Of a stretch of DNA of 64,000 nucleotides, positions 38,114 to 60,595 are shown piece after piece. The position numbers were made by a program, and so were the translations under genes. Each line of letters opens with the position of its first letter. Position 1 is the stretch's first letter. The notes beneath the pieces are model-generated. The model made no database searches, was not told where the DNA came from, and worked only from the letters and a program-made list of their open reading frames with translations. Source of the stretch: Glaciimonas sp. (lineage in GTDB: Bacteria; Pseudomonadota; Gammaproteobacteria; Burkholderiales; Burkholderiaceae_D); NCBI GenBank assembly GCA_012927625.1, contig JABBOV010000008.1, positions 186,001 to 250,000 on the forward strand, given 5' to 3'.

Positions 38114-38230
38114 CGGCTGTGAGCCGATTTTTACTTATATTTTATATTCTAAAATACAGAATATATTCCGCTAATAATAAATGATACAAAAAAACAGTGC
38201 AATCTATATTCATGTATCGTTTGCACTGTT
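38114..38230 (-). promoter_or_regulatory. liv upstream region with nested inverted repeats
   Basis: Upstream of livH are a CGGCT-GTG-AGCCG hairpin (38114-38126), an ATTCT/AGAAT pair (38146-38162) overlapping a GAATATATTC palindrome (38159-38168), and an AT-rich promoter-like tract. Further up, GATACA/TGTATC (38183-38188, 38213-38218) and AACAGTGCAA/TTGCACTGTT (38193-38202, 38221-38230) cross each other in pseudoknot order. Which of these are operators or RNA structures is unknown. Confidence 0.5.
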
Positions 38231-41614: not shown

Positions 41615-41709
41615 GTGAACTCCTTGTAATGTTTCAAATTGGGCCGCCATGATTGAACGGAGTACAAATTTAAATGCTGAGAGCAGCTTTTTAATTATAA
41701 ATATTAGAT

Positions 41710-41782
41710 GAGTATAAGTATAAACAATACATTTTACGCATGTATTTATTGCGTATTTAAAAAATACAATGGCTAGTATATG
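41710..41782 (-). repeat. AT-rich dispersed repeat, copy 5
   Basis: Read on the minus strand it runs CATATACTAGCCATTG, a T-run, ACGCAATAAATACATGCGTAAAATG and ends TATACTC. It matches copies 3 and 4 in block order and length (73 bp). It lies about 95 bp upstream of the MBL-fold gene. Confidence 0.6.
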
Positions 41783-41960
41783 TTTATTACGACCATTCTG
41801 AAAAACCACTGCAACCCACTTAAAATGCACCTGGCACCGCTTGCTTTTGGTGCCTATTCCCGGCTTCGCCATCAACATGCATGCAGGTCTTGTCGACAAC
41901 TATCCGTATCTAGACCGTATTTTTCACCGCACTCAAACACTGGCCTGTGCTTGCATTAAT

Positions 41961-42068
41961 ATTCGTTTATAACGAATCAATTTACTATCATCAAATTTGT
42001 TGATATTGACGAATAAATTTAATTTATAATCAACGCGTGCCGTTGTGGTCAGCAGGTAGCTGACCACA
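41961..42068 (+). promoter_or_regulatory. Promoter and operators of the IclR-LuxR pair
   Basis: Three inverted repeats occur in order: ATTCGTT-TAT-AACGAAT (41961-41977), ATCAA-ATTTG-TTGAT (41990-42004) and TGTGGTCAGC-AGGTA-GCTGACCACA (42044-42068). A TATAAT at 42025-42030 with TTGATA 19 bp upstream is a plausible promoter. The last palindrome would lie just after the transcription start, a good place for autorepression by IclR. Confidence 0.6.
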
Positions 42069-42099
42069 GAGCAACCAAAATTGGATCAAGGAGAATTGC

Positions 42100-42894: not shown

Positions 42895-42898
42895 GCCG

Positions 42899-43942
42899 AT
42901 GTATGCGCCGACCCGCGAAGAATTGCATCTGCTGCTGGAAATTATTGCCAGCCTGCATCACGGCGATAGCTCGCAACGCATCCGGCAAGAAATGGCGCAC
43001 GCCATCCTGCAATTGCTGCGCGCCGATTATCTGGCGTCGTATGTCAAGAACACCGCGACCGGGCGCTTCGAAGACTGCGTTGCACTGAATATGGAGCCAG
43101 ACAGGTTGGCGCTGTATGAAGAATATTTCCAATACCATGACCCGATCACACCGCTGTTACAGCAGCAGCGTCAGACCACGCTGGTATCGGCAGTGATTAC
43201 GCAGCGTGAGCTGGAAAAGACCGAATTTTTCAACGACTTCCTGATCCGCGGCGGCCTGCACCACGGTATTGACCTGCACCTGCACGACGGCGACTTGCAT
43301 ATTGGCGATCTGCGCATCTGGCGCGCACGGCAGCAACCCCAGTTCGGCCAGCGCGAAGTGATGCTGCTGGAAATGCTGAAACCACATCTGATCGATGCGC
43401 TGGCGCAACTGGCCGCGCTGCAGCGCGAACGCAGCAACAGCGACAACTGGCAAGCGTTATGGGCCAGCTATCCCGACCCCTGCTTCATCCTCGATGGCAA
43501 TGGCACAGAATTGCAGCGCAATCGTAGCGCTAACGTATTGCTGGAGCAGATAGGCGAGCCGGAGCGCGCCACACTGCCGGGCTTTCTGCAAGAGGCCGAA
43601 AAAAATACACTGGGAGGCCAGCTCTGGGGCGACTATTTGGCCATTACGACACGTATTCAGTATGCAAAGCAGACGCAGGCCGGGACGCTGATCCAACTGG
43701 TGCCGCAACATCGCCATCTACCCGCAGCGCACGACTTGTGCCAATGTTTTGGGCTGACGCAACGCGAAGCACAAGTTTGTTCACTGGTATTGCATGGCTA
43801 TTCGGATAAAGAAATTTCACGTCAGTTATCGATCAGCTTCCCAACCGTGCGTACCCACCTGAGTCACACTTTTTCCAAAGTCGGCGCCACTAGCCGCGCC
43901 GGATTGATCCACCGCGTCAGTTCAAGCCCACACTTTAAGTGA
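42899..43942 (+). CDS. LuxR-type HTH transcriptional regulator
   Basis: A 347-residue protein with a GAF-like or PAS-like N-terminal region (unassigned) and a C-terminal LuxR helix-turn-helix (about 285-342: LTQREAQVCSLVLHGYSDKEI, ISFPTVRTHLSHTF). It starts MYAPTREELH 4 bp after the iclR stop, so it is translated from the same mRNA. It lacks an obvious receiver or autoinducer domain. It converges on paaE. Confidence 0.88.
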   Translation: MYAPTREELHLLLEIIASLHHGDSSQRIRQEMAHAILQLLRADYLASYVKNTATGRFEDCVALNMEPDRLALYEEYFQYHDPITPLLQQQRQTTLVSAVITQRELEKTEFFNDFLIRGGLHHGIDLHLHDGDLHIGDLRIWRARQQPQFGQREVMLLEMLKPHLIDALAQLAALQRERSNSDNWQALWASYPDPCFILDGNGTELQRNRSANVLLEQIGEPERATLPGFLQEAEKNTLGGQLWGDYLAITTRIQYAKQTQAGTLIQLVPQHRHLPAAHDLCQCFGLTQREAQVCSLVLHGYSDKEISRQLSISFPTVRTHLSHTFSKVGATSRAGLIHRVSSSPHFK

Positions 43943-44014: not shown

Positions 44015-45112
44015 TTAGCGCTCGTCGAAACTGATCACCACCCGATTGCTGGTTGCGCGGGCTTGGCAACTCAGCACAAAACCCTGCTCCATTTCCCACG
44101 CTTCCAGGGTGAAGTTCTTGTCCATCTCGACCGTACCTTCAAGAACTTTGGCCCGACAGGTACAACAAACGCCTGACTTGCAGGAGAACGGCAAATCGAG
44201 GCCGGCATTGAGGGCCGCATCAAGCACACGTTCGCCGGCGCCAATGCGCATCTCATGCTGCTTGCCATCAACCAGAATAGACAGGGAAATGTCTTTTGCC
44301 GCTTGATTCCCGCTCTGCGCAGCGTCGGTGTCGGCCTGAACCTTGGCGGCTATTGCCGCACTGGTTGTAAATCTTTCAGTGTAGACACGGCTTTGCGGCA
44401 CACCGGCACCGACGAGTGCCGCCTCGGTCGCTTCGATCATCGCTTCCGGTCCGCAAATAAACACTTCGTCCATGCTGGCTACGGGTAACAGCGCAGCGAT
44501 AATCGCGCGGACCTTGTCGCCATCGATACGTCCTTGCAGCAGATCCACTTCTTGCGCCTGGCGCGACAGGATGTGGATGAGCGTCAGGCGATCCGTGTAG
44601 CGATCCTTCATATCTTGCAGGGTTTCGTTGAACATCACGCTGGACATGTGGCGATTACCATAGATTAGAGTGAATTTCGAGTCCGGCTGCTCTTCCAGGG
44701 TGGTGGCCGCAATCGACAGAATCGGCGTGATCCCCGAACCCGCAGCAAAACCGACCCGATGAATAGCGCGCTGTTTGCGCACGGTAAAACGTCCATCGGG
44801 CGGCATCACGCTGATCGTGTCCCCAACCTTGAGCGAGGTCGCCGCCCAGTTGGAAAATAGCCCGCTCTCGACCGGGCGAATGCCGATTTCCAGCTCGCCC
44901 AATTTTGCCAGACGGCTGCGCGAGCTGCTGACCGAATAATTCCGCCGCACCTGTTCGCCATTTACGCTGGCGCGCAGGATCAGGAATTGACCGGGTTGAA
45001 AATTGAAAATTTCCCGTGTTTCTGGCGGAATATCAAAGGTAATCGCCACCGAGCCAGCCGCTTCCGGGTTGACGCGTTTGATTTTGAGTTCATGAAAATG
45101 GAGAGCGGGCAT
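44015..45112 (-). CDS. paaE: Phenylacetyl-CoA epoxidase reductase PaaE
   Basis: PaaE feeds electrons from NADPH to the PaaABC(D) epoxidase. The 365-residue protein has an FAD/NAD reductase front (RRNYSVSSSRS; GFAAGSGITPILSIAATT) and a C-terminal plant-type 2Fe-2S domain with CKSGVCCTC and a later Cys in LSCQAR. It is the last gene of the paa operon, 28 bp after paaD. Confidence 0.96.
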   Translation of the reverse strand: MPALHFHELKIKRVNPEAAGSVAITFDIPPETREIFNFQPGQFLILRASVNGEQVRRNYSVSSSRSRLAKLGELEIGIRPVESGLFSNWAATSLKVGDTISVMPPDGRFTVRKQRAIHRVGFAAGSGITPILSIAATTLEEQPDSKFTLIYGNRHMSSVMFNETLQDMKDRYTDRLTLIHILSRQAQEVDLLQGRIDGDKVRAIIAALLPVASMDEVFICGPEAMIEATEAALVGAGVPQSRVYTERFTTSAAIAAKVQADTDAAQSGNQAAKDISLSILVDGKQHEMRIGAGERVLDAALNAGLDLPFSCKSGVCCTCRAKVLEGTVEMDKNFTLEAWEMEQGFVLSCQARATSNRVVISFDER

Positions 45113-45140
45113 GTCGTGATACTCCGATAAAGACTAATAA

Positions 45141-45650
45141 CTAATAAGGCTTGAAATAATCGAACGGTTCCTGGCAATCCAGACACTTGTACAGCGCCTT
45201 GCAGGCCGTTGACCCGAAATAGGAAGATTCGACGGTGTTGGCGGAGCCGCAACGCGGGCAAACCACGGCATCGGCAGAGACCGGCACCGAACGGCGCGCC
45301 ATGAAGTGCACCACGTTGGTCGCCGCAGGTGTCCGATGCGGCGGCGCGATGCCGTAAGCGCGCAATTTTTCCTTGCCGGCCTCGGTCATCCAGTCGGTAG
45401 TCCAGGCCGGGGCAAGTTGCGTGATGATCCGCGCTGAAATTCCTTTCGCTTGCAGGGCGGATCGCACATCATCCTCAATCTGCCCCATGGCCGGGCAGCC
45501 ACTGTAGGTGGGAGTGATAACCACCTCCATCTCATCGCCTGTCTCGCGCACATCGCGCAAGATGCCCAGTTCGCGCAACGAAACAACCGGGATTTCCGGG
45601 TCGGACAAGTCGTCGAGCGCCGCCCAGGCATCTTGCACGCGGGTGCTCAT
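45141..45650 (-). CDS. paaD: Phenylacetate degradation protein PaaD
   Basis: PaaD belongs to the MIP18/DUF59 family and is thought to mature metal centres of the epoxidase. The 169-residue protein has the DUF59 core (LSDPEIPVVSLRELGILRDV, PTYSGCPAM) and a C-terminal zinc-ribbon-like CPRCGS...CLDCQ tail, typical of PaaD. Start at 45650 (MSTRVQDAW), 4 bp after paaC. Confidence 0.95.
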   Translation of the reverse strand: MSTRVQDAWAALDDLSDPEIPVVSLRELGILRDVRETGDEMEVVITPTYSGCPAMGQIEDDVRSALQAKGISARIITQLAPAWTTDWMTEAGKEKLRAYGIAPPHRTPAATNVVHFMARRSVPVSADAVVCPRCGSANTVESSYFGSTACKALYKCLDCQEPFDYFKPY

Positions 45651-45654
45651 CGGC

Positions 45655-46437
45655 TTACCAGCAGCCATTCGGGTGAGCGCGCGCCAGACTTTGCATCTCA
45701 CTCAGTACATAACCCAGATGCTCGGAGTGCAGGCCGTTTTTACCCTGCGGCACATAGCCGTCGGTTTTGGAGCGACGCAATGTTGCTTCCAGCAGCGCGT
45801 CGTCAACCATGCAATCCCAATCCGTTTTCAGATCTTGCAAATCGACGCCAATGCCGGCGGCACTAGCATCTGACTCGGCCGCACTGCTGATCCAAAATTC
45901 CTGGGTATACGGCATCAGGTGATCCAAAGCTGCCTGTGCGCGAGAGTGGGATTGCTCCGTTCCATCGCCCAAGCGCAGCAACCAGTCGCGTGAATAACGC
46001 AGGTGATAACGCACTTCCTTCAATGATTTGGCAGCGATGGCAGCCAACTGTTCATCCTTGGAACTCTGCAAGGATTCCCATAACAAGGCCATCAGGGCGC
46101 TGTAAAGAAAGTTGCGAACGATGGTTGTGGCGTAATCGTGATCGGCGGCAGCATTGCCTGCCAGCGGGCCATGATGCGGCAACTCAAGCAGGGTGTAATT
46201 ACGGAAATCGCCGACATCGCGAAAATAGGCCAGCGTATCCTCGGTCGCCGCGCCACCCTTGCGTTGGGCTGCGCATTGATACAACATGCGCGCTTGCCCA
46301 ATCAGATCGAGGCTGACGTTGGCCAAAGCGATGTCTTCCTCCAGGATCGGCCCGTGTCCGCACCATTCGGCATTACGCTGGCCGAGCACCAGTGCGTTGT
46401 CAGCCAAATGCAACAGGTAGTCAACATGGCTTGTCAT
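45655..46437 (-). CDS. paaC: Phenylacetyl-CoA epoxidase subunit PaaC
   Basis: PaaC is the structural partner of the PaaA catalytic subunit. The 260-residue protein has a ferritin-like helical fold lacking a full diiron set and matches the family over its length (LADNALVLGQRNAEWCGHGPILEEDIALANVSLDLIGQAR). Its ATG overlaps the paaB stop by one base. Confidence 0.95.
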   Translation of the reverse strand: MTSHVDYLLHLADNALVLGQRNAEWCGHGPILEEDIALANVSLDLIGQARMLYQCAAQRKGGAATEDTLAYFRDVGDFRNYTLLELPHHGPLAGNAAADHDYATTIVRNFLYSALMALLWESLQSSKDEQLAAIAAKSLKEVRYHLRYSRDWLLRLGDGTEQSHSRAQAALDHLMPYTQEFWISSAAESDASAAGIGVDLQDLKTDWDCMVDDALLEATLRRSKTDGYVPQGKNGLHSEHLGYVLSEMQSLARAHPNGCW

Positions 46438-46730
46438 TACATGTGCCCCACTTCGTCAGGAATAGTATAAAAAGTCGGATGTCGATAAATTTTGTCGGCC
46501 ATCGGATCGAAAAATTCAGGTTTCTCGTCAGGTTTGCTGGCAGTGATCGCGGCCGACGGCAACACCCAGATGCTGACGCCTTCCTGGCGACGCGTATACA
46601 CATCGCGCGCCATTTGCAGCGCTTGTTTTGCATCTGCGGCGTGCAGACTGCCGCAGTGTTTGTGCTCCAGGCCCTGTTTGCTGCGAATAAAAATTTCCCA
46701 TAGTGGCCATGCTTTCAATTCGGTGCTCAT
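46437..46730 (-). CDS. paaB: Phenylacetyl-CoA epoxidase subunit PaaB
   Basis: A 97-residue small subunit of the epoxidase complex ([27 protein letters not shown]). Start at 46730 (MSTELKAW) overlaps the paaA stop as ATGA; a longer frame from 46796 is within paaA. Confidence 0.95.
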
Positions 46731-47740
46731 GCTGTCTCCTTCATTGTGCGTTCTTGTTGTTTGCGGGCGTAGGCAAGTGCGGCATCGCGCACCCACTGCC
46801 CATCGTTATGCGCTTTGACGCGGGTCGCCAGGCGCTCTTTGTTGCATGGACCGTCGCCATTGACGGTGGCCCAGAATTCGTCCCAGTCGATCTGGCCATA
46901 ATCGTAATGTTGGCGCTCCTCGTTCCATTTCAGATCAGGGTCGGGCAGCGTCACGCCAAGTACCTTGGCTTGCGGTACGGTGGCATCGACAAATTTCTGG
47001 CGCAAATCGTCGTTGCTGATGCGCTTGATGCCCCAGCGCATGCCCTGCGCACTGTTCGGGCTATCCGCATCGGGCGGGCCGAACATGGCCAGACATTTCC
47101 ACCACCAGCGGTTGACCGCATCGCGCACCATGGCGCGCTGTTCTTCGGTACCTTGCATCATCACCAACAGAGCTTCGTAACCCTGGCGCTGATGGAAAGA
47201 TTCCTCCTTGCACACGCGCACCATGGCCCGGGCGTATGGGCCGTAGGAACAACGGCAAAGTGGAATCTGGTTCATGATCGCCGCGCCGTCGACCAGCCAG
47301 CCGATCACGCCCATATCGGCCCAGGTCAGCGTCGGGTAATTGAAGATGGAACTGTATTTGGCGCGGCCGCTGTGCAAGCCGTCCAGCATCTGTTCACGGC
47401 TGGTGCCGAGTGTTTCAGCCGCTGAGTACAGATACAGGCCGTGGCCGCCTTCGTCTTGCACCTTGGCGATCAGAATGGCTTTGCGCTTCAGACTCGGGGC
47501 GCGAGAAATCCAGTTACCCTCGGGCAGCATACCGACGATTTCGCTGTGCGCGTGCTGGCTGATCTGGCGCACCAGCGTCTTGCGATAGGCTTCCGGCATC
47601 CAGTCTTGTGGTTCGATCTTGCCATCGGCATCGATCTTGCTATCGAAATGGGCCTGCAATTCTGGATTTTCCGTCGATGGGGCCAGTGGTACAGCCTTCA
47701 GGCCGGGGCTATCTGGAACATTAAAAGATTGCGTGTACAT
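46727..47740 (-). CDS. paaA: Phenylacetyl-CoA epoxidase catalytic subunit PaaA
   Basis: PaaA is the diiron subunit that epoxidises the ring of phenylacetyl-CoA with O2. The 337-residue protein shows the metal motifs [13 protein letters not shown] and [14 protein letters not shown] and the conserved [22 protein letters not shown]. Full family length. It is the first of the coupled A-B-C-D-E block; the enoyl-CoA hydratase gene upstream is 66 bp away. Confidence 0.97.
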
Positions 47741-49940: not shown

Positions 49941-51146
49941 TCAAATACGTTCAATAATCAGAGCGATGCCCTGTCCAACACCGATACACATGGTGCAAAG
50001 CGCATACCGGCCGCCACGGCGAGCGAGCTCGTAGCTGGCGGTGGTGACCAGGCGGGCGCCACTCATCCCGAGCGGATGACCCATTGCAATGGCGCCACCA
50101 TTCGGATTGACGCGGGCTTCATCGTCAGCCAAACCGAGGCTGCGCAGCACAGCCAGACTCTGGGCAGCGAAGGCTTCGTTGAGTTCAATGACGTCCATCT
50201 GACCCAGCGTCAGGCCCGCCTTGGCCAGTACCTTACGCACGGCGGGAACGGGGCCAATGCCCATGACATGTGGCGACACACCCGCGGTAGCCATGGCAAC
50301 GACGCGAGCACGCGGCGTCAGCCCATGCTGCCGAGCGGCAGCTTCTGAGGCGATAAGCAGCGCGCAGGCACCATCGTTAAGGCCGGAAGCATTGCCGGCA
50401 GTGACGGAAAGTTCCGGGCCATTGACGCCCTTGAGTTTGGCCAGCATGTCTAGCGTAGTTTCCGGGCGCGGATGCTCATCGGTATCGACGACCATCGGCT
50501 CACCCTTCTTGCGCGGAATAAGCACCGGCACGATTTCATCGGCAAAACGACCGGCCGCATGGGCAGCAGCCCAACGCTGTTGTGAGCGCAGCGCGAAAAC
50601 GTCCTGATCGGCACGAGAAATCTTGAACTCTTGCGCCACGTTATCCGCCGTTTGCGGCATCGTATGGGTGTCGTAGAGTTTCTTCATCAGTGGATTGGGG
50701 AAACGCCAGCCGATGGTAGTGTCGTAAACACTGGCACTACGCGAGTAGGCAGACTCCGCCTTGCCCATAACGAAAGGCGCGCGCGACATGCTTTCGACGC
50801 CGCCGGCAATCATCAGCTCGGTGTCGCCCGCCTTGATCGAACGTGCCGCCAGGCCGATCGCATCCATTGCCGAGCCGCACAGGCGATTGATTGTGGTACC
50901 CGGCACTTCGATGGGCAAACCAGCCAACAGGCCGGACATCCGGGCGACGTTACGATTGTCTTCTCCGGCCTGGTTGGCACAACCGTAGATGATGTCATCG
51001 ACGCTTGTCCAGTCGACATGCGGATTGCGCTCCATTAACGCCTTAAGCGGAATCGCCCCCAGATCGTCGGCGCGCACGCCGGCCAAAGCGCCGCCGTAAC
51101 GGCCGATGGGGGTGCGAATGGCATCGCAAATAAAAGCTTCAGTCAT
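49941..51146 (-). CDS. paaJ: 3-oxoadipyl-CoA/3-oxo-5,6-dehydrosuberyl-CoA thiolase
   Basis: PaaJ performs the thiolytic steps at the end of phenylacetate catabolism. The 401-residue length equals that of PcaF/PaaJ. Active residues are the Cys in NRLCGSAMDA, the His in GGAIAMGHPLGMSG, and the Cys in CTMCIGVGQGIAL. The ATG at 51146 (MTEAFICDAIRTPIGRYGGA) is the family start. Confidence 0.95.
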   Translation of the reverse strand: MTEAFICDAIRTPIGRYGGALAGVRADDLGAIPLKALMERNPHVDWTSVDDIIYGCANQAGEDNRNVARMSGLLAGLPIEVPGTTINRLCGSAMDAIGLAARSIKAGDTELMIAGGVESMSRAPFVMGKAESAYSRSASVYDTTIGWRFPNPLMKKLYDTHTMPQTADNVAQEFKISRADQDVFALRSQQRWAAAHAAGRFADEIVPVLIPRKKGEPMVVDTDEHPRPETTLDMLAKLKGVNGPELSVTAGNASGLNDGACALLIASEAAARQHGLTPRARVVAMATAGVSPHVMGIGPVPAVRKVLAKAGLTLGQMDVIELNEAFAAQSLAVLRSLGLADDEARVNPNGGAIAMGHPLGMSGARLVTTASYELARRGGRYALCTMCIGVGQGIALIIERI

Positions 51147-51156
51147 ATCCGTTCTT

Positions 51157-52482
51157 TCAATTTTGTTTGGGGCGCTTGTCAATTACTCGGAGGGCCTTGC
51201 CGGTCAGGGTGCGCGGAATGGAGTCGTACGCCATGACAGTCACCCGTGTCGAAATGCCGGCGATAGTCTTGATGTGATGCTGTATTTCCTTACTGACCGT
51301 CTGGATTTCCAAGGGTGACAACTTGCCGGAAAACTCGCGCTGCAGTTCGCAACGCACTTCGACGTTGTCGAGGTGACCATCACGGGAGAGCAGAATCTGA
51401 TAGGTCCCAGCCAGGCGTTTGTCACGTAGGATCTGCTCTTCAATTACGCTTGGAAAGACGTTGACGCCGCGTACGATCAGCATATCGTCGGTACGGCCGG
51501 TGATCCGATCCATACGTCGGAAGCTGCGCGAGGTCGGTGCCAGCAAACGGGTCAAGTCGCGTGTGCGGTAGCGGATCACCGGCATCGCCTCCTTGGAAAG
51601 TGAAGTGAAAACCAGTTCGCCTTCCTCACCATCGGCTACCACTTCACCCGTTTCCGGGTTGATGATTTCAGGATAAAAATGATCTTCCCAAACCACTGGG
51701 CCATCTTTGGATTCGATGCACTCACAGGCGACGCCTGGCCCCATCACTTCAGTCAAACCGTAGATGTCGATGGCGTCGAGACCCAGCTTGCGTTCAATTT
51801 CGGTTCGCATGCCATAGCCCCACGGCTCTGCGCCGAAGATGCCGATTTTCAGAGAAATGTCTTCGGGGCTGATACCCTGACGCTCGAACTCTTCGGCAAT
51901 CACCAGCGAGTAAGACGGGGTCACCATGATGATCTCGGGTTGGAAATCCAGGATCAACTGCACTTGTTTTTCCGTCTGACCGCCTGACATCGGCACCACC
52001 ATGCAACCGGCACGCTCGGCACCGTAGTGGGCACCCATGCCGCCTGTGAACAAGCCGTAGCCGTAAGCAATGTGGCAGGTATCCCCGGCGCGACCACCAG
52101 CCGCGCGAATTGAGCGAGCCACGAGATTGGCCCATGTGTCGATATCTTTTAATGTGTACCCGACCACGATCGGCTTGCCGGTGGTACCGGACGATGCGTG
52201 TACGCGCGCCACCTTGTTGCGAGGCACCGCAAACAGGCCAAACGGATAGTTGTCGCGCAGGTCTATCTTGGTGGTAAATGGGAACTTGGCAAGGTCAGCC
52301 AAGGTTTTCAAGTCGTCAGGATGGACGCCTTTTTCATCGAACGTCTTTTTGTAATGCGGCACGTTATCGTAGGCATGCTTCAGCGTCCACTTCATGCGCT
52401 CCAGTTGCAGTGCGGCGATTTCATCACGGCTGGCGGTTTCTATGCGCTCGAGGTCTCCGGGCATGGGGGTTTTGACGGGCAT
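51157..52482 (-). CDS. paaK: Phenylacetate-CoA ligase
   Basis: PaaK activates phenylacetate to its CoA ester with ATP, the entry step of the pathway. The 441-residue protein has the P-loop HASSGTTGKPIVVGYT, the AMP motifs GIFGAEPWG and IYGLTEVMGPGVA, and the C-terminal IPRTLTGKALRVIDKR lysine region. All appear intact. Confidence 0.96.
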   Translation of the reverse strand: MPVKTPMPGDLERIETASRDEIAALQLERMKWTLKHAYDNVPHYKKTFDEKGVHPDDLKTLADLAKFPFTTKIDLRDNYPFGLFAVPRNKVARVHASSGTTGKPIVVGYTLKDIDTWANLVARSIRAAGGRAGDTCHIAYGYGLFTGGMGAHYGAERAGCMVVPMSGGQTEKQVQLILDFQPEIIMVTPSYSLVIAEEFERQGISPEDISLKIGIFGAEPWGYGMRTEIERKLGLDAIDIYGLTEVMGPGVACECIESKDGPVVWEDHFYPEIINPETGEVVADGEEGELVFTSLSKEAMPVIRYRTRDLTRLLAPTSRSFRRMDRITGRTDDMLIVRGVNVFPSVIEEQILRDKRLAGTYQILLSRDGHLDNVEVRCELQREFSGKLSPLEIQTVSKEIQHHIKTIAGISTRVTVMAYDSIPRTLTGKALRVIDKRPKQN

Positions 52483-52506: not shown

Positions 52507-52962
52507 TTATTCGGCGGGCTGCAAGCCGGCGATCACTTCGCCGCTGATGCGATAGCTCTTGCCCCGAAACAGGGCAATGGTTTTTCCGCCACGCGTGCGC
52601 ACGGTGACGTCATAGACGCCGGTGCGACCGGACAGCGACTGCTCAACGGCTTCGGCTTCTAAAATGTCGCCTTCATTGGCCGGTGCCAGAAAGTCGATGT
52701 GACAGGCGGAAGCCACCGTATTTTGGTTGTAACTGTTGCAGGAATAGGCAAAAGCACTGTCTGCCAGCGTAAAGATGTAGCCGCCGTGACAGATAGCGTG
52801 ACCGTTGACCATATCTGGTCGCACCGGCATCGACATCATGGCGTAGCCGGGTTTGACCTTAAGTATCTGCATATCCAGGGCATTGGTGGCGCGGTCGCGC
52901 GACCACATGACGGCAGAAACTTGTTCGGCCAGTGCCTGCGGATCGGTATGTTGTTCAGTCAT
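52507..52962 (-). CDS. paaI: Hydroxyphenylacetyl-CoA thioesterase PaaI
   Basis: A 151-residue hot-dog thioesterase that releases CoA from dead-end ring-oxidised intermediates. The active-site segment is NGHAICHGGYIFTLADSAFAY with the catalytic Asp in ADSA. Start MTEQHTDPQ at 52962 overlaps the paaH end by 8 bp. Confidence 0.94.
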   Translation of the reverse strand: MTEQHTDPQALAEQVSAVMWSRDRATNALDMQILKVKPGYAMMSMPVRPDMVNGHAICHGGYIFTLADSAFAYSCNSYNQNTVASACHIDFLAPANEGDILEAEAVEQSLSGRTGVYDVTVRTRGGKTIALFRGKSYRISGEVIAGLQPAE

Positions 52963-54496
52963 GGATATTCTTTCCAGCAAAAACCTTATGTTGGATTAGC
53001 GGTGAGACGCGGTAGCGATCTTCACCGTAGGCCTGGCCCAAATTGGCCAGAACCTGGCTAATTTTTGACAAGCCAACGGCGTCGGCCCAGGCCAGTGGCC
53101 CACAAGGATAATTGACGCCCAAGCGCATCGCCGAATCGGCCCCTTTGGCATCGCACACGCCTTGATTAACGGCATCCGCCGCTTCATTGGCCAGCATGGC
53201 GACGCTACGCATGACAACGAGACCAGGCACATCGTTAAAGCGGGAGACTGCAATACCTGCGGCTTGCAATAAGCCGATGGCCCGCGCCGCACTTGGTGCA
53301 TCGCATTGCGCTGCAATACTGATGGCCAATCGCGTCGCGTGGCTGTAATCAAGCGCCAAATCGATCAACACGGTATGGGCGATACCGGATTCAGCGGCCC
53401 GATGCGTCGCTGTGCGGCCATCGGTGACATACACCACCGCACCGCCGGCCTCGGCAACACATTCATCTTTTGCTGCGTCACGCATGACCGCGGACTGGGT
53501 AAAGCTGACACTATTGGCGCGCAAGCGTTCGGCCAGTGCTTTGGCAGCGGTGGAATCGCCATAAATAACAATATCGTCCGGCACCGACTGCAGAGCCTCG
53601 GTGCTTGGCGCGGGACGCACTGCCCCTTCGCGATAATCATAAAAGCCGCGACCGGTTTTTTTACCGAGGAACCCGGCATCGACCAGTTCTTGTTGAATCA
53701 AGGAAGGCAGGAAACGCTGGTCGTTGAAGAAAGCATTCCATACCGAACGGGTCACCGCAAAATTGACGTCGTGGCCGATCATGTCCATCAGCTCGAACGG
53801 CCCCATGCGAAAACCGCCGGACTCGCGGCAGCAGGCGTCAATGGTAGCCGGATCGGCCCCGCCTTCATTGAGCACGCGCATGGCTTCGGCGTAGTACGGG
53901 CGCGCCACACGATTGACGATGAAGCCCGGTGTTGATTTGGCATGCACAGGCGTTTTGCCCCATGCGGCGGCGGTGGCGAACAGCGTTTCCGCCACGGCAC
54001 GGTCGGTGGCCAGCCCGGAGACAATTTCCACCAGCGCCATCAAGGGAGCGGGGTTGAAAAAATGCAAACCGGCGAGCCGCTCGGGGTGTTTCAGGGCCGC
54101 ACCAATCGCCGTTACGGAAATCGAGGATGTATTGGTGCCAAAAATGCAGTCGTCACTGACCACAGCTTCGAGATCGCTATACAGTTTTTGCTTGGCGTCC
54201 AGATTTTCGACAATCGCTTCGATAACCAGACTGGCGTCGGCCAGATCGGATAATTGATTAGCCGCAACAAGGCGCTCGCCTGCTGCGGCGGCGGCTTCTG
54301 CTGTCATCTTGCCTTTTTCGGCCATTTTCGCGAACTGGGCGCGAATACCAGCAATTGCGCGTGCCGCTGCCTCGGGACGATTATCCAGTAATTTCACTGG
54401 ATGGCCGGCTGCTGCCGCAACTTGGGCAATGCCAGCGCCCATGGCGCCGGTACCGACCACTGCGATCACTGCTTGCATTGAAAGGGGGCTATGCAT
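52955..54496 (-). CDS. paaH: 3-hydroxyadipyl-CoA dehydrogenase
   Basis: The 513-residue NAD enzyme oxidises 3-hydroxyadipyl-CoA. The Rossmann motif is VVGTGAMGAGIAQVAAAAGH, with the HAD motif HFFNPAPLMALVE and C-terminal helices twice (GRGFYDYREG; GVNYPCGPLAWADAVG). Start at 54496 (MHSPLSMQAV) is favoured by GGGGGA upstream; MQAVIAVVG at 54478 is an alternative. Confidence 0.95.
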   Translation of the reverse strand: MHSPLSMQAVIAVVGTGAMGAGIAQVAAAAGHPVKLLDNRPEAAARAIAGIRAQFAKMAEKGKMTAEAAAAAGERLVAANQLSDLADASLVIEAIVENLDAKQKLYSDLEAVVSDDCIFGTNTSSISVTAIGAALKHPERLAGLHFFNPAPLMALVEIVSGLATDRAVAETLFATAAAWGKTPVHAKSTPGFIVNRVARPYYAEAMRVLNEGGADPATIDACCRESGGFRMGPFELMDMIGHDVNFAVTRSVWNAFFNDQRFLPSLIQQELVDAGFLGKKTGRGFYDYREGAVRPAPSTEALQSVPDDIVIYGDSTAAKALAERLRANSVSFTQSAVMRDAAKDECVAEAGGAVVYVTDGRTATHRAAESGIAHTVLIDLALDYSHATRLAISIAAQCDAPSAARAIGLLQAAGIAVSRFNDVPGLVVMRSVAMLANEAADAVNQGVCDAKGADSAMRLGVNYPCGPLAWADAVGLSKISQVLANLGQAYGEDRYRVSPLIQHKVFAGKNIHD

Positions 54497-54500
54497 CCGC

Positions 54501-55298
54501 TTATTCCCCCGTAAAATTTGGGGCGCGCTTGCCGATGAAAGCGGCAACACCCTCGGTAAAATCGGCACTCCAGCCCAATTCGCGCATGAAACCAGCTTCC
54601 ATCGAAAGTTGCTGCTCCAGAGTGTGTCCAGGGGCAGCATGCATGGCTTGACGGGTACGCACCAAAGCCTTGGTGGGAGCGGTGGAAAGTTGCGCAGCCA
54701 AGGCGTCGACGGTAGCTGCGAACTCGGCATCATCGACGGCGGCCCAGATCAGCCCCCACTCGGCAGCTTTCTCAGCAGGCAGTTTGTCGGCCAGCAGCGC
54801 CAGTCCCATTGCACGCGCCATTCCAACGCGTTGCGGCAAAAACCAGGTGCCGCCGGTGTCAGGAATCAGCCCGACCTTGGAGAATGCCTGTAGGAATGAA
54901 GCGGATTTACAAGCGATGACCAGATCGCATGCCAGCGCCAGACTGGCCCCGGCACCAGCCGCAATACCATTGACGGCGGCAATGGTCGGCACCCGCAGAT
55001 TTTGCAGGCGCAGGATCAACGGCTTGTAATTTCTTTCAACCACATCGCCCATATCGGGCGGAGCCTCACCGGGAGCGAACTGCACCTCCTTGTCCGACAA
55101 ATCCTGCCCGGAACAGAAAGCACGGCCGGCACCTGTCAAGACCAGCACGCGGATCGTTTTATCTTCCTGAACCTGATCGAGCGCAACTCGCAACTCGGCG
55201 TGCATGGCCGCGTTGAAGCTGTTCATTTTGTCGGGCCGATTGAGCGTCAGACGGGCAACGCTGCCTTGCACCTCGAAGCGAATATTTTCAAAAGTCAT
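54501..55298 (-). CDS. paaG: 2-(1,2-epoxy-1,2-dihydrophenyl)acetyl-CoA isomerase
   Basis: PaaG converts the ring epoxide to oxepin-CoA and later isomerises a double bond. The 265-residue crotonase has the oxyanion segment GRAFCSGQDLSDKEV, a glycine-rich GIAAGAGASLALACD, and the PaaG-type Asp in LIPDTGGTWFLPQRVG. It starts 9 bp downstream of paaN's stop and ends 4 bp before paaH. Confidence 0.94.
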   Translation of the reverse strand: MTFENIRFEVQGSVARLTLNRPDKMNSFNAAMHAELRVALDQVQEDKTIRVLVLTGAGRAFCSGQDLSDKEVQFAPGEAPPDMGDVVERNYKPLILRLQNLRVPTIAAVNGIAAGAGASLALACDLVIACKSASFLQAFSKVGLIPDTGGTWFLPQRVGMARAMGLALLADKLPAEKAAEWGLIWAAVDDAEFAATVDALAAQLSTAPTKALVRTRQAMHAAPGHTLEQQLSMEAGFMRELGWSADFTEGVAAFIGKRAPNFTGE

Positions 55299-55307: not shown

Positions 55308-56975
55308 TTACACGTGGTAACGACGCTGGATAACCCGAAAGCGGTTGGCAACGAAGGCCGAATCAGAGTAGGAAGCATTCGCTGCAGGATTACCGCCGGT
55401 ACCGTGGTAATCGGAGAAGGCGGACGATTGATTCACAAACACGCCACCGGTCAGATTGATCGACAGAGCCACCTTCGAACGCCAGGTAGCTGCGGTCATC
55501 GCGTCGATGACTTCCGGCTTGGTAGAGTAGATGCCTGCGGTCAACGCGCCGTGAGTGGCAATAATGCGTTCGGACAGCGCAATGGCTGCTGCAGTATCAG
55601 TCACTTTGACAATGAAGCTGATCGGACCGAAACGCTCTTCCATGTAGGATTTTTCATCCGTAGCATCGCAAGCCAGCAGGATCGGGGTACGCACTTCGGC
55701 TTGCGGGAATTCAGGATTGTCGAGCTTCTTCGATGCGAGAATCACCCTTCCCAGCGCACCGCTATCAGCCTCCTCGATGCGAGTCAGCGTGTCGGTGGAT
55801 TGGATGGCGCCAAGGACAGCGTGCGCGACTTCCGGCTTAGACAAGAAGCCTTCCACAGCCCGTGCCAGATCGGCACAGAATTCATCGTAGGATTTGTGAC
55901 CGTCTTCTGTCTCAATGCCATTTGCCGGAACGAACAAGGCTTGGGAAGTGGTACACATCTGGCCGGAGTACAGCGATAGCGTGAAGGCCAGATTGCGCAG
56001 CATTGGTTTGTAAGCATCGGTCGAGTCGATGACAATATTGTTCACACCAGCCAGTTCGGCATAAACCTGAGCCTGGCGGCAGTTGTCAATCAGCCACTGA
56101 CCGAAAACATTGCCGCCGGTGAAATCGATCGACTTTACCGCCGAATCGGTCACCAACTGTTGCGTGGTTTCGCGCTTGTCAGACACACACAGGGTTACGA
56201 GATTGGGGTCGATGCCATTTTCAGCAAGGACGGTACGAATGGTGCGCACGGTAATGGCAGCCGGCAGAATTGCGTTGCTATGCGGCTTGACGATAACGGC
56301 ATTGCCGGTTGCGAGTGCCGCAAACAGGCCGGGATAGGTGTTCCAGGTCGGGAAGGTACCGCAACCAACGACCACGCCGACACCACGCCCGACTAATTCA
56401 AAGTGCTTTTTCATTACCAGCGGCGGATTCTTGCCCTGCGGTTTTTCCCAGATCGTTTCAGCCGGCACGAAACTCTGTTCGCGATAGGCATAAGTAACCG
56501 CCTCCAGGCCGCGCTCCTGCGCATGCGGCGCACCAGCCTGGAAAGCCATCATCCAGCCTTGCCCTGTGGTCATCATCACCGCGTGCGCCAGTTCAAAGCT
56601 CTGCTTATTCAAACGATCCAATATCTCGATACAAATACCGGTTCGTCCTTCGCAGCCGACCGCCTGCCAAGCTTGCATGGCCCGCTGGCCGGCATCAATC
56701 AGCGCCTGAACATCGCAAACTGGGTATTGCACATTAAGCGCAATACCAAAAGGGGACTGCTCTGCCCCGTGCCAAGCGGCTTGCCCCGGCTGAGCCAGGT
56801 CGAAATTCTGACCCAGATGGGCCTCGAAAGCGCGTTTGCCATCCTCTGGCGCAGTCTCGCCATACGTTTTCGGGCTGGGCATTTCATTGTAGGCCGCCCA
56901 GTAACCCCGGGTCTGGATCGCCTTAAGCGCGTTTTCCAGCGTGGCGCGATGCTTTTCGAATAAGGGGTGAGACAT
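55308..56975 (-). CDS. paaN: Phenylacetate degradation aldehyde dehydrogenase PaaN
   Basis: A 555-residue aldehyde dehydrogenase of the PaaN type, proposed to oxidise the semialdehyde formed on ring opening. The N-terminus (MSHPLFEKHRATLENALKAI) is characteristic; catalytic Cys is in YSGQMCTTSQALFV. Unlike E. coli PaaZ it lacks the MaoC-like hydratase domain, so oxepin-CoA hydrolysis needs another protein. The ATG at 56975 has AGGAG; upstream frame to 57068 is rejected. First gene of the minus-strand paa operon. Confidence 0.94.
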   Translation of the reverse strand: MSHPLFEKHRATLENALKAIQTRGYWAAYNEMPSPKTYGETAPEDGKRAFEAHLGQNFDLAQPGQAAWHGAEQSPFGIALNVQYPVCDVQALIDAGQRAMQAWQAVGCEGRTGICIEILDRLNKQSFELAHAVMMTTGQGWMMAFQAGAPHAQERGLEAVTYAYREQSFVPAETIWEKPQGKNPPLVMKKHFELVGRGVGVVVGCGTFPTWNTYPGLFAALATGNAVIVKPHSNAILPAAITVRTIRTVLAENGIDPNLVTLCVSDKRETTQQLVTDSAVKSIDFTGGNVFGQWLIDNCRQAQVYAELAGVNNIVIDSTDAYKPMLRNLAFTLSLYSGQMCTTSQALFVPANGIETEDGHKSYDEFCADLARAVEGFLSKPEVAHAVLGAIQSTDTLTRIEEADSGALGRVILASKKLDNPEFPQAEVRTPILLACDATDEKSYMEERFGPISFIVKVTDTAAAIALSERIIATHGALTAGIYSTKPEVIDAMTAATWRSKVALSINLTGGVFVNQSSAFSDYHGTGGNPAANASYSDSAFVANRFRVIQRRYHV

Positions 56976-57354
56976 TGATTTCTCCTGGGTATGGGATGTG
57001 GCGTGATGGATGTGGCCTGATGCGGAAATGTTGCTCCAACTTGCGATTAAGTACAAATTACAAAACATTTCATTGATATAGAATATGTGTATCAGAACTA
57101 ACAGTCAAGGCAATTAATTACATTTAGCGTAATTTATTCCTCTTAATTAAAGATAATCCTTTTAAAACAATGACTATATTTATAATATTAAGTATTTTTT
57201 TGTTTATATAGCAACAATAAATGCAATACAAGAGGTATTTAATCCATAAATTAGATACAAAAATATTGACATTAATATGAATTATGTATCATTATTAGAT
57301 CGCGGAATCCCATAGCGGGCTGATCCGCTTTTCAATAACCGTATAGGAGCAGTT
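56976..57354. promoter_or_regulatory. Divergent control region between paaN and the diiron gene
   Basis: 379 bp, very AT-rich, no gene. Two similar motifs, ATATAGAATATGTGTATCAG (57076-57095) and ATATGAATTATGTATCAT (57275-57292), lie near each end. A TTGACA at 57266-57271 with TATCAT 15 bp on is a possible diiron-gene promoter overlapping the second motif. PaaX is the obvious candidate to bind here, though its published consensus is not clearly matched. Confidence 0.55.
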
Positions 57355-58383
57355 ATGGCTAGCAACAAAGAACGTTTCGCAGATACGATGGAATTTCCAC
57401 CGGAAACTGAACAACCGAACATCTATCCGCTTTCATGGAATGTAAAAACCAAGAAATTGCAGGAAGTATGGGAAGCCTCCCTGCGCGAGAGCTGGAACCC
57501 GGAAAATCTGCCTTGGGACACACTGGATGTGGATAGCTACTCTTGGGAAGAGCGCGAATCCATCGCCTATTGGTGGAGCCTGCTGTCAGTGTTCGACGCC
57601 TCCGCCCCTCCTGTTTTTGCCGAAGCATTGGTCAAGACCTATGAAGTCCACGAAGAAGATCCGGTGCGGAAGTGCTTCTTCTCGGTCACCCGCGACGAAC
57701 AGAATCACGAAATCATGTGCGGCCTGGCCATCACCAAGATGCTTGGCCATCCGGACCCAATAACCTACGAGCCGAAGACTGAACTCGGCAAGCGTTTGCA
57801 GAAAAACGTGAAGTGGCTGTACTTCAATGGCGGACGTTACTGGACTGGTTACAAGAAAGCAGTGCCAAAGTACGACCTGGCAGTGCTTTTCAGCTCATTC
57901 CTGATGGGCGAAATCGCTGCTGCCACTATCTTCAAACAGATGTTCGACCACAGCCGCGAAGCCGTCTTCAAGGAAGGCTTCAAGAACATCGGCCGCGATG
58001 AAGGCCGTCACATGGCCATCTGCATGGCCGTGATGGAACGTGACTACCCCGGCCTCAAGGAAGAAAACAAAGCCATCGTCACCAAGCAGATCCGCGCTGG
58101 TTACCTGTTCCTGTCGGCGGTGCTGTTCGAACCGCCGATGGAATTCTGGGATCTTCCGTCCGACTTCATCGCTAACCAGCGTGAAGCAGAGGAAGTAGCG
58201 CGCGGCGCCGGTTTCGGTATCCCGAGCTATGAAGCCAAGCTCGAAAATTGGAAGAACGCGATAATCAACTTGAAGGGCGTGCTAGATCGTTACAACATTC
58301 CATTCCCGGCAATTCCAGAACTGGGCATTACCGGCCAGGAAATCAGCGACGTCGACATGGAAGACATAATTCCGGTCTTCTAA
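57355..58383 (+). CDS. Ferritin-like diiron protein, probable monooxygenase or oxidase component
   Basis: A 342-residue protein of the ribonucleotide-reductase-R2-like fold. Candidate metal ligands are E90, E115 with H118 (DEQNH), E186 (GEI) and E216 with H219 (DEGRH), giving two ExxH motifs at the spacing seen in R2 and bacterial multicomponent monooxygenases. It is unlike PaaA in sequence. AGGAG precedes the ATG. A flavin/2Fe-2S reductase follows, so an O2-dependent oxidation is expected. The substrate is unknown; a reaction feeding or assisting phenylacetate use is inferred from PaaX and paaN as neighbours. Confidence 0.8.
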   Translation: MASNKERFADTMEFPPETEQPNIYPLSWNVKTKKLQEVWEASLRESWNPENLPWDTLDVDSYSWEERESIAYWWSLLSVFDASAPPVFAEALVKTYEVHEEDPVRKCFFSVTRDEQNHEIMCGLAITKMLGHPDPITYEPKTELGKRLQKNVKWLYFNGGRYWTGYKKAVPKYDLAVLFSSFLMGEIAAATIFKQMFDHSREAVFKEGFKNIGRDEGRHMAICMAVMERDYPGLKEENKAIVTKQIRAGYLFLSAVLFEPPMEFWDLPSDFIANQREAEEVARGAGFGIPSYEAKLENWKNAIINLKGVLDRYNIPFPAIPELGITGQEISDVDMEDIIPVF

Positions 58384-58474
58384 ACACGGTCAACCGTAAC
58401 AAACTGCTGGCCGGTTCTCCGCGGGGGCGCCGGTCTTGCATTAACAGAAAAATACTGCAACAAAGGGGAAAACA

Positions 58475-59524
58475 ATGGCTCGCATCATCATGCAACCCTC
58501 CGGCAAATCAGTCGATTGCGCCTATGGCGACACCGTACTCATGGGACTGGAAAAAGCGGGTTACGCCTTGCCGAACAACTGTCGCGCCGGCGCTTGCGGC
58601 GAGTGCAAAGTGAAGGTCACGGGCGGCCAATTCGACCAGGGCATGGTGCTCGACATGGCACTCACACAGGAAGAACGCAAGCAGGGCTATGGCCTCATGT
58701 GCATGGCCAAACCGATTTCCGAGGAACTGACCATCGAATGGGGCACCACTGATGCGCAGCCCAAACTCTTCCCGCCACGCGAAGATGCCCTCTTCGTCGT
58801 CACCGAAAAACGTCCAATCGCACAGCGCGTGGTCGAACTGCGCCTGCGCCCGGTCGGCCAACCGATCCGCTACTGGCCTGGCCAATACGTGACCATTGGC
58901 AATTCTCGTGCCGGCATTCCGCCCCGAGCCTATTCCATTTCCAACGCACCACGCCCGGATGGCGAACTGGTTTTTCAGGTCGCCCGTGACGAGGGCGGTG
59001 TCACCAGCAACTGGGTCCACGATCAATTAAACATTGGCGAAAGCATCAAAATATCCGGGGCTTACGGCACCTTCATCGGCGATCCGTCGGTCGACACTCC
59101 AGTCCTCTGCCTGGCTGCCGGGACCGGCCTCGCCCCCATCCTGGCACTGGCCGAAGCAGCGCTGCGCCGCGGCTATAAAAAACCGGTAACCATGCTTTTC
59201 TCAGCGCGAACCAAAGACGATGTCTACAGCCAAGGCCTGATGGCCTGGTGGCGTACCAAGCATCGTAATTTCGACTACAAGGTCACGCTGACCCGGGAAA
59301 ATCTAGAGGGCTACCTCGCCGGCCGCGTTGATGTAGTCCTGCCCCAGCTTTTCCCTGATCTATCCAAACACACCATCTTTGCAGCAGGCAGTCCGGAGTT
59401 TGTCGATACCTGTCGGGCAACAGTTAAACAGCTTGGGGCCAAAGACGAATTGATCCACACCGAAGGCTTTTTTGCGCAGCAACAACCAGTCGTCGCCAAT
59501 GCGGATCGCTTGCTCCCGCTCTGA
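58475..59524 (+). CDS. 2Fe-2S ferredoxin/FAD/NAD(P)H oxidoreductase
   Basis: A 349-residue oxygenase reductase. The N-terminal ferredoxin domain has C36, C41, C44 and C76 (CX4CX2CX31C). FAD binding is at RAYSISNAPR, and the nucleotide domain has CLAAGTGLAPILALAEAA and FAAGSPEFVD. The domain order (ferredoxin first) is opposite to PaaE. It follows the diiron gene by 91 bp, a gap containing a GC-rich imperfect hairpin, and is the natural electron donor to it. Confidence 0.9.
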   Translation: MARIIMQPSGKSVDCAYGDTVLMGLEKAGYALPNNCRAGACGECKVKVTGGQFDQGMVLDMALTQEERKQGYGLMCMAKPISEELTIEWGTTDAQPKLFPPREDALFVVTEKRPIAQRVVELRLRPVGQPIRYWPGQYVTIGNSRAGIPPRAYSISNAPRPDGELVFQVARDEGGVTSNWVHDQLNIGESIKISGAYGTFIGDPSVDTPVLCLAAGTGLAPILALAEAALRRGYKKPVTMLFSARTKDDVYSQGLMAWWRTKHRNFDYKVTLTRENLEGYLAGRVDVVLPQLFPDLSKHTIFAAGSPEFVDTCRATVKQLGAKDELIHTEGFFAQQQPVVANADRLLPL

Positions 59525-59569
59525 CTTTTCTCTTCAGGGCTCTGTTCAGAACAGGGCGGAATCGCTAAC

Positions 59570-60595
59570 ATGCAATACTTTATTGCCTTGCAAACTGCTT
59601 CCATCCCCGTGATTCTTCCTATTCAAAAACATCTTGACAACTTCCGGCAACTGAGCCGCGTGCAGGCCGGTTCGCTCATTATTTCCGTTTTTGGCGATGC
59701 TGTTTTGCCGCGCGGCGGGCGCATCTGGCTCGGTAGCCTGATTGGCCTGCTCGAACCTTTGCAACTTAATGAGCGGCTCATCCGCACATCTGTGTTCCGT
59801 CTAGCCAAAGAAGAGTGGCTGCGTACAGAAGCCCACGGCCGACGCGCAGATTACATGCTGACGCCCGCAGGGAAACGTCGTTTTGAAGAAGCATCACGAC
59901 ATATTTACGCTTCCAACGCCCCGTTTTGGGACCGCCGTTGGCGTCTGATCCTGACCGTCGGTGAACTCGATCCAAAGCAACGTGAGCGCCTGCGCCGCGC
60001 ACTCTTCTGGCAAGGTTTTGGCGTCCTCGGTTCGAATTGTTTTGTGCATCCAAGCGCCGACTTAACCGCTGCTTTCGATGCACTGATGACGGACGGCATG
60101 ACTGATCTGCTCAGCCATTTGATGCCATTACTCGCCGCAGACTCGCGCCTAGGTCAGTCCGCCAGTGATGTCGACATGGTGCAATCTGCCTGGAATCTGG
60201 AACAGCTTGCCACCGCCTATACGGATTTCGTCACCAGCTACCACCCGATTCTGAAGACGCTGCGTCAGGACGTACGCAGCGAAATTGACGATGAAAGTGC
60301 TTTTTTGCTGCGCACGCTGCTGATCCACGACTATCGCAGGCTGTTACTACGCGACCCGGAGCTTCCTGATGTGCTGCTGCCTGCCAACTGGCCCGGGCAG
60401 AAAGCCCGTCTACTGTGCAAAGAACTCTACCGGCGGTTGCTTGCGCCCTCCGAGCGCCACCTCGACCGCCACATGACGCTAGCCAACGGCGAGACACCGG
60501 AAGCCTCGCCCATGCTGGCTGAACGTTTTCAGAACGAGGATCCGCTGGCTCCACAGTTTAACCAACGCGCTTTTTCAGTTCAACCAGAGGGATGA
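59570..60595 (+). CDS. paaX: PaaX family transcriptional repressor
   Basis: PaaX represses phenylacetate genes and is released by phenylacetyl-CoA. The 341-residue protein has the conserved winged-helix opening (RAGSLIISVFGDAVLPRGGRIWLGSLI), later RLAKEEWLRTEAHGRRADYMLTPAGKRR, and the PaaX C-domain. The first ATG gives about 15 extra residues and the true start may be later. It is the third gene of the diiron operon; a small CTGTTC-A-GAACAG hairpin (59542-59554) lies just before it. Confidence 0.93.
   Translation: MQYFIALQTASIPVILPIQKHLDNFRQLSRVQAGSLIISVFGDAVLPRGGRIWLGSLIGLLEPLQLNERLIRTSVFRLAKEEWLRTEAHGRRADYMLTPAGKRRFEEASRHIYASNAPFWDRRWRLILTVGELDPKQRERLRRALFWQGFGVLGSNCFVHPSADLTAAFDALMTDGMTDLLSHLMPLLAADSRLGQSASDVDMVQSAWNLEQLATAYTDFVTSYHPILKTLRQDVRSEIDDESAFLLRTLLIHDYRRLLLRDPELPDVLLPANWPGQKARLLCKELYRRLLAPSERHLDRHMTLANGETPEASPMLAERFQNEDPLAPQFNQRAFSVQPEG

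Follow-up and report, generated by a model that had tools for sequence, protein, structure and literature searches.

Among aerobic routes for aromatics, the hybrid phenylacetate pathway occupies a central place, and the sources available to us, in the parts accessible, credit its first ring attack to PaaABCE alone. A 2026 survey of 6,536 genomes proposed, in its accessible portion, PaaA and PaaC as robust markers, but as a last filtering step it discarded every ligase that was not co-localised with PaaABCDE (PMC13186573). The present analysis concerns a 64,000-nucleotide stretch of Glaciimonas sp. (assembly GCA_012927625.1, contig JABBOV010000008.1, positions 186,001 to 250,000; hereafter the window), in which a diiron protein, DII, is encoded beside a reductase, RED, in the company of phenylacetate genes. 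We propose that DII-RED is an alternative phenylacetyl-CoA ring oxygenase, isofunctional with PaaABCE but unrelated to it, and we give this reading a probability of about 0.72. Because the survey filter, as described in that portion, demanded PaaABCDE co-localisation, DII-type clusters would have dropped out of it.

The genome collection contains 174 relatives of DII, and counts over 80 loci refer to the best 80 of these, the closest relatives only, with 82 to 93% identity. Conservation of DII is far beyond chance. RED adjoins DII in 79 of the 80 loci (74 detected by open reading frame (ORF) and 5 by tblastn), and the remaining locus, L054, stops at a contig edge. The divergent neighbour is paaN in 57 loci, paaX follows RED in 32 and livH follows in 27; at least one paa gene of 45% identity or above is present in 67. 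A preliminary description of the window, made from its letters alone, had placed DII divergent from paaN, with paaX after the pair, and this arrangement is borne out: the DII, RED and paaX ORFs are all intact, and the block diverges from paaN. The same description raised the conservation of the diiron-reductase-paaX trio, for which the result is divided, as the DII-RED adjacency is nearly constant but the strict trio represents only a subset of loci. In Paraburkholderia (L044 and L048) the trio is found without paa genes, at the same identity threshold, within 10 kb.

DII is sparsely distributed around its host, which has a single copy. The window's own genome was the sole match among 299 genomes of the phylum, and likewise among 369 of the class; DII was found in 6 of 300 genomes of the order sample. 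A family sample of 145 genomes yielded two full copies, including that of the window, one remnant and one distant relative. The latter is a 304-residue protein (L089, 1039-1953, genome G733; E 2.7e-7) whose gene precedes that of a transporter-type substrate-binding protein, and no RED was noticed in the 3.4 kb around it.

To place DII against the standard epoxidase, matches to PF05138 (PaaA_PaaC) were scored in the genomes of the 80 loci. They are strong in 43 and diverged in one (L081, with scores of 71 and 59 bits); in the other 36 they are either missing or no stronger than 31 bits. Frames with weak matches are mostly about 480 residues long, a length that suggests resemblance to BoxB; the G1135 match, at 28.9 bits, is just above the Pfam cut-off. 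Twelve of the 36 PaaA/C-less genomes carry no metagenome-assembled genome (MAG) label, including Dechloromonas denitrificans, Brachymonas denitrificans, Insolitispirillum peregrinum, Castellaniella defragrans and Azonexus hydrophilus. The locus stretches of the 36 contain paaN (30), paaG-type crotonases (31), paaK (25), paaH (24) and paaJ (21), and PaaA, PaaC and PaaE were found in none of these stretches; L058, L065 and L075 show no paaN, paaK, paaJ, paaH or paaG in the stretch. Six PaaA-less clusters analyzed in detail (L012, L050, L076, L077, L079 and L080) contain paaN, paaH, paaI, paaK, paaJ, a substrate-binding protein gene and DII-RED, and no paaABCDE. In four of them paaG was called, and L076 and L079 encode an FAD monooxygenase.

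A second sample comprised 199 genomes of one family and partially overlaps the 80 (DII has the same coordinates in G889 as in L012, and in G1312 as in L010). Full-length DII is present in 35 of these genomes, with a partial copy besides in G1180, PaaA in 44, and PaaN above its cut-off in 76. All 35 full-DII genomes contain PaaN at 850 bits or more; 17 also contain PaaA and 18 do not. In each of these 18, RED is beside DII. The paaN gene is adjacent to DII in 10 of them, shares a 19.9-kb region with it in 3 and is located on a different contig in 5. The paaN regions of 15 of the 18, including two of the five on a different contig, each contain, as a minimum, paaG and paaJ with identities of 40% or above, G1300, G1326 and G1331 being outside this set. 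Single-contig genomes of 99 to 100% completeness that possess DII without PaaA include G1160, G1181, G1190 and G1247 in the sample and G975 outside it. On a DII tree of 86 rows, with L081 counted as PaaA-less, PaaA status changes at least 18 times, and the starred branches alone force 5 changes. The preliminary description had taken the presence of another O2-activating enzyme to mean an additional substrate or a side-reaction role. Both suggestions lose ground here, because clusters without PaaABCDE exist: it was not found, yet paa genes are present, in 36 of the 80 genomes and in 18 of the 35, and replacement is the simpler reading.

The promoter of DII suggests control within the same regulon. 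The motifs TTTGTATC/GATACAAA occur upstream of DII in 44 of 71 dereplicated promoters, whereas in 20 mononucleotide shuffles no 8-mer exceeded a count of 8. In 47 of the 80 loci the full element, GATAC-N26..29-GTATC, is located 260 bp or less upstream of DII. The remaining 1,397,007 bases of the loci contain 44 such sites, and for 43 of them the start of DII, paaN, paaG or livH is no more than 450 bp away; a second copy on the paaN side, some 310 bp ahead of DII, accounts for many of these sites, and a site precedes livH in other loci as well as in the window. In the accessible text the Escherichia coli PaaX box is TGATTC(N27)GAATCA (PMC9493321), similar to the DII element in architecture but with different half-site letters. 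A second type of box was detected instead in three other genomes. The exact 12-mer GACCGGTCGGTC precedes DII in Azoarcus sp. L1K30 (G1072), Pseudothauera rhizosphaerae (G1073) and G1157, and its reverse complement is found by paaN, as an exact match in G1072 and G1073 and with a single mismatch in G1157. DII is far from the paa cluster in G1072 and G1073, and in the same stretch in G1157. This 12-mer resembles the PaaR operator of Burkholderia cenocepacia, given as ACCGACCGGTCGGTT in the portions available (PMC9493321, PMC2770484). With a PaaX-like box in most loci and a PaaR-type box in three genomes, DII-RED is probably controlled by two different phenylacetyl-CoA repressors, whose binding is predicted from the sites. 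The earlier placement of the pair as a candidate member of the phenylacetate regulon is supported by these operator-like sites and by the presence of paaN in every full-DII genome of the 199.

In the mechanism that we propose, DII-RED would be a diiron monooxygenase of two components with a single hydroxylase protein, and electrons from NAD(P)H would pass through the FAD and [2Fe-2S] centers of RED to the diiron site of DII (D81, E115, H118, E186, E216 and H219), which would activate O2 and epoxidise the CoA-activated ring of phenylacetyl-CoA. The product would probably be the 1,2-epoxide, which PaaG, the oxepin-CoA hydrolase and PaaN would then process. PaaX, or PaaR in some genomes, would keep the promoter shut until phenylacetyl-CoA forms. 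More tentatively, a low-oxygen role for DII would fit hosts that are named for denitrification.

The foremost alternative, which we regard as unlikely, is a narrowed form of the extra-substrate suggestion: DII-RED would act not on phenylacetyl-CoA itself but on another or a substituted arylacetyl-CoA (a hydroxylated one, for instance) that enters the same lower pathway. The coexistence of DII with strong PaaA/PaaC matches in 43 of the 80 genomes is consistent with such a role, as are the Variovorax relatives. The Variovorax plasmid operon L003, whose DII is 52% identical, encodes a MaoC protein that corresponds to the hydratase domain of PaaZ (model positions 523-653), a PaaG-like crotonase that does not reach the PaaG cut-off, a thiolase, a PaaN (624.7 versus 578.75 bits), a diverged PaaK-like ligase well below its cut-off (283 versus 646 bits) and a CoA-transferase, followed by DII, RED and an ABC transporter. 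PaaABCDE is not annotated in L003, and TIGR02156 had no match in the L003 and L004 records, which were the extent of that search. The pairing of DII-RED with PaaN, the PaaG-like crotonase and the PaaZ-type hydratase in this operon counts in favour of the proposed ring oxygenase. An indolepyruvate ferredoxin oxidoreductase is annotated nearby in the Variovorax relatives and, together with the ligase, suggests another aryl group there. Against a different substrate, the PaaA-less clusters retain, alongside paaN and paaJ, a paaK that is 67 to 84% identical to that of the window, itself above the family cut-off, and the operators resemble those of phenylacetyl-CoA repressors.

Several observations weigh against DII-RED as the phenylacetyl-CoA ring oxygenase. 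No biochemical or growth evidence for it was found, and PaaABCDE is also present in many DII genomes, including that of the window. In the genomes of L070, L071, L074, L085 and L086, DII-RED is away from the paa cluster and PaaA is present, so an extra role is possible there. A sister species in the genus of the window (L088, G659, 1363-1689) keeps paaN, paaX and PaaA, and its DII and RED are reduced to a fused 108-residue remnant between the paaN and paaX frames; the pair is thus dispensable in that species. The operator element is missing before DII in 33 of the 80 loci, and no RED-like gene was seen in the stretch of the actinobacterial relative from Nonomuraea (L006, 50% identity). Six of the 36 PaaA-less stretches contain an FAD monooxygenase gene, in principle another ring hydroxylase, and most unmatched ORFs beside the DII loci are without annotation. 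Gaps in MAGs may inflate the number of PaaABCDE absences.

The co-occurrence statistics are also not straightforward. At the curated PaaN cut-off, the 76 genomes divide into 17 with PaaA and DII, 21 with PaaA only, 18 with DII only and 20 with neither, so that DII is not enriched among the PaaA-less PaaN genomes. With a PaaN line at 850 bits, 58 genomes divide into 17, 20, 18 and 3, respectively (Fisher p 0.005), but this line was set post hoc, after the scores were known, and the case rests on the counts and not on the p value. In the regions of the 20 genomes with neither enzyme, some of them short contigs, PaaN could be mapped in 19 and is 39 to 55% identical to the window PaaN, and paaG, paaH and paaJ are all unseen in 15. 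The three such genomes at 850 bits or more encode a single diverged PaaA-like protein of about 260 residues, with about 24 to 26% identity to PaaA, near paaN, paaG, paaI and paaK (L099, 11411-12190, PF05138 86.4 bits; L104, 11411-12208; L115, 11266-12063). It is possibly a further ring-oxygenase variant.

The loss of the pair in the sister species that has PaaA would also suit an accessory function, and several carriers are named denitrificans. Both facts could be accommodated if DII were a protective diiron protein that removes toxic epoxide or tropone-type by-products, or scavenges O2 or NO. We consider this improbable, as it leaves the source of the epoxide unexplained in genomes where no PaaABCDE was found, and leaves equally unexplained the Variovorax operon without annotated PaaABCDE.

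The DII protein contains the motifs E115-x-x-H118 and E216-x-x-H219, together with D81 and E186, and none of the six varies across an alignment of 26 sequences that includes DII and extends to 50% identity. Their spacing is that of a diiron site in an R2-like bundle, and by this analogy they would form a full six-ligand diiron set. DII is below every Pfam and NCBIfam cut-off. At an E of 1 or better, its Pfam matches are AurF (PF11583; 21.6 versus 29.6 bits) and Rubrerythrin (15.9 versus 22.8 bits), and its three NCBIfam matches are each far below cut-off, among them R2lox (NF006200, 9.2 versus 194 bits). The PaaA models TIGR02156 and PF05138 gave no match to DII at an E of 1 or better, and comparison of the DII and PaaA profiles with hhalign gave a probability of 0.3% and no alignment. 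PF00268 likewise has no DII match at an E of 1, and 4 of the 26 aligned members touch it at an E of 0.01 or better. A search of the PDB with the DII profile returned nothing significant, and a viral fold library gave weak top matches only, mostly ribonucleotide-reductase-like. The preliminary description of DII as an uncharacterized diiron protein with two clean ExxH motifs, distinct from PaaA, stands, and no close family of known function was found in the Pfam, NCBIfam and PDB searches. That DII might be an AurF-like N-oxygenase of an amine, recruited to the phenylacetate regulon, is very unlikely: every member of the 26-sequence alignment has a match to the Pfam AurF model at an E of 0.01 or better, but DII itself is below the AurF cut-off, several other diiron families are equally near in fold, and no amine-handling gene was noticed among the nameable neighbours, most unmatched ORFs having no annotation. 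By spacing alone, the position of the third histidine ligand of AurF would be I212 in DII, which is invariant in all 26 sequences.

An AlphaFold model of DII, built from a 42-row alignment, has a mean predicted local distance difference test score (pLDDT) of 79.8 and a predicted template modelling score (pTM) of 0.83. Its nearest folds are R2lox (Z 18.2, root-mean-square deviation (rmsd) 4.1 over 256 residues), VlmB (Z 17.4, rmsd 3.6, 257 residues), the R2 subunit of human ribonucleotide reductase (RNR; Z 16.9, rmsd 4.0, 243 residues) and MMOH (Z 16.8, rmsd 4.3, 269 residues), with 8 to 15% sequence identity among the rows listed. Foldseek gave no PDB match at an E of 0.001 or better, and helical bundles score high in fold searches, so we read the model as an R2-like diiron fold and nothing further. 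PaaA and BoxB are not among the 50 rows listed in the structural comparison, which is uninformative. DII was also considered as an RNR R2 protein and rejected, since no RNR cut-off is reached and PDB matches to R2 chains have an E of 0.6 or more. In addition, C122 stands four residues after H118, the position that in E. coli R2 is occupied by the radical tyrosine.

Class IB reductases are ferredoxin-first, and the Pfam domains of RED (Fer2, 7-80; FAD_binding_6, 118-200; NAD_binding_1, 213-314) follow the order of such an oxygenase reductase, unlike PaaE, as had been noted before. Classical monooxygenases use class IB or III reductases and PaaE is class IA, according to the accessible part of PMC4498308. 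The best NCBIfam score of RED is to BenC (144.8 bits, cut-off 430), with MmoC fourth (122.7 bits, cut-off 500); the NADH oxidoreductase PRK10684 (140.1 bits) and PaaE (124.5 bits) score in the same range, and the BoxA model gives 26 bits against a cut-off of 459.2.

In the search listings of the open-licence literature, outside which most papers of subscription journals lie, we found no description of the DII-RED pair or of a PaaABCDE-free phenylacetyl-CoA oxygenase, and noticed no report of aerobic phenylacetate growth of a PaaA-less strain. The accessible portions of PMC5876002 and PMC6515984 do not mention the pair. For D. aromatica, the accessible text scores the anaerobic PadBCD, PadEFGHI and PadJ as absent and mentions a phenylacetic acid cluster (PMC2907700). 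If DII-RED is the ring oxygenase that we propose, the phenylacetate pathway is undercounted in surveys, a simple oxygenase of two genes would be at hand for phenylacetyl-CoA, and dearomatisation of aryl-CoA with O2 has non-homologous evolutionary solutions.

Table 1. Features of the window around DII-RED, with the evidence for each assignment (bit scores are given as score > cut-off).
Feature	Position	Strand	Evidence
DII, 342-aa R2/AurF-like diiron protein, proposed hydroxylase component	57355..58383	+	intact ORF, invariant residues, modelled fold
RED, proposed dedicated electron donor of DII; ferredoxin [2Fe-2S]-FAD-NAD(P) order	58475..59524	+	Pfam/NCBIfam, adjacency to DII
paaX, repressor of phenylacetate genes	59570..60595	+	TIGR02277 285.4 > 264.55 bits
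Predicted PaaX-box-like operator GATACA-N25-TGTATC; TTGACA (-35-like) between halves at 57266	57254..57290	.	promoter motif scan
paaN, ring-opening aldehyde dehydrogenase, divergent from DII; start placed at 56975	55308..56975	-	TIGR02288 902 > 579 bits
paaG, epoxide isomerase	54501..55298	-	TIGR02280 372.4 > 345.15 bits
paaH; longest ORF, family match from residue 87 on	52955..54733	-	TIGR02279 697.5 > 669.4 bits
paaK, phenylacetate-CoA ligase	51157..52482	-	TIGR02155 703.6 > 646.3 bits
paaJ-type 3-oxoadipyl-CoA thiolase	49941..51182	-	TIGR02430 731.3 > 597 bits
paaABCDE, standard phenylacetyl-CoA epoxidase genes	44015..47740	-	PaaA 541.8 > 280, PaaC 270 > 133 bits
Second predicted PaaX-box-like operator, upstream of livH	38183..38218	.	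promoter motif scan
Transporter operon including livH	34127-38033	-	

Within the standard epoxidase genes of the window (Table 1), PaaE scores 409.6 bits, slightly below its NCBIfam cut-off of 420.8, and the PaaB- and PaaD-like frames were named by reading, PaaD being without a match at E 1e-60. The preliminary description made no mention of these genes, which bear on how DII-RED is interpreted. In the livF-type ATPase (34127-35443, minus strand) of the transporter operon with the PaaX-like box, a hemerythrin domain at the N terminus (PF01814, 59.5 bits) is joined to the ABC ATPase; hemerythrin domains are O2- or iron-binding. Between the transporter and paaE (38860-43942) are genes for an FAD monooxygenase (PRK08132 family, 832.7 bits), an MBL-fold protein, and IclR-type and LuxR-type regulators. 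Relatives of this FAD monooxygenase are again found beside liv genes in L075, L076, L078 and L079. Elsewhere in the window, a type I-F CRISPR-Cas system (8670-21876) includes csy4, csy3, csy2, csy1, a cas2-3 fusion and cas1, assigned with Pfam, and an array of 72 repeat copies with a spacing of mostly 60 nt.

By the tests run, DII-RED is a member of neither PaaABCE nor BoxAB, the two systems that it would resemble in its working. PaaABCE (PaaA: TIGR02156, PF05138) shares with it the company of paaK, paaG, paaH, paaJ and paaN and probably the regulon, as well as the diiron chemistry predicted for DII, an NAD(P)H-FAD-[2Fe-2S] reductase and the reaction proposed here. The two differ in that no sequence kinship was detected, RED is the sole constant partner found for DII, and the domain order of the reductases is opposite; the neighbours of DII in the window are paaN, RED and paaX, not PaaB/PaaC and an FAD-first PaaE. 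BoxAB, the benzoyl-CoA 2,3-epoxidase, similarly pairs a single hydroxylase with a single reductase, on an aryl-CoA substrate. The NCBIfam matches of DII at an E of 1 or better do not include BoxB, the BoxA score of RED is far from the family level, and BoxA has two [4Fe-4S] clusters in the accessible text of PMC4498308, compared with the one ferredoxin domain of RED. R2lox, class I RNR R2, VlmB and ADO resemble DII in fold (Z of about 16 to 18) and in their ExxH pairs, and AurF, the nearest Pfam model, also has ExxH pairs; all of these differ from DII in their low identity among the rows listed, in the family cut-offs, none of which DII reaches, and in their company and regulon. The BenC and MmoC families are ferredoxin-first like RED, which is far below their equivalog cut-offs and has DII as its partner. 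A more ambitious and tentative interpretation, for which we would give slightly less than even odds, is that DII is the founding member of a third class of arene epoxidases for CoA thioesters, one that evolved independently of PaaABCE and BoxAB and has an R2-like one-protein hydroxylase as its base, and that DII may have displaced PaaABCDE many times, while its Variovorax and actinobacterial relatives (50 to 52% identity) may serve other arylacetyl-CoAs.

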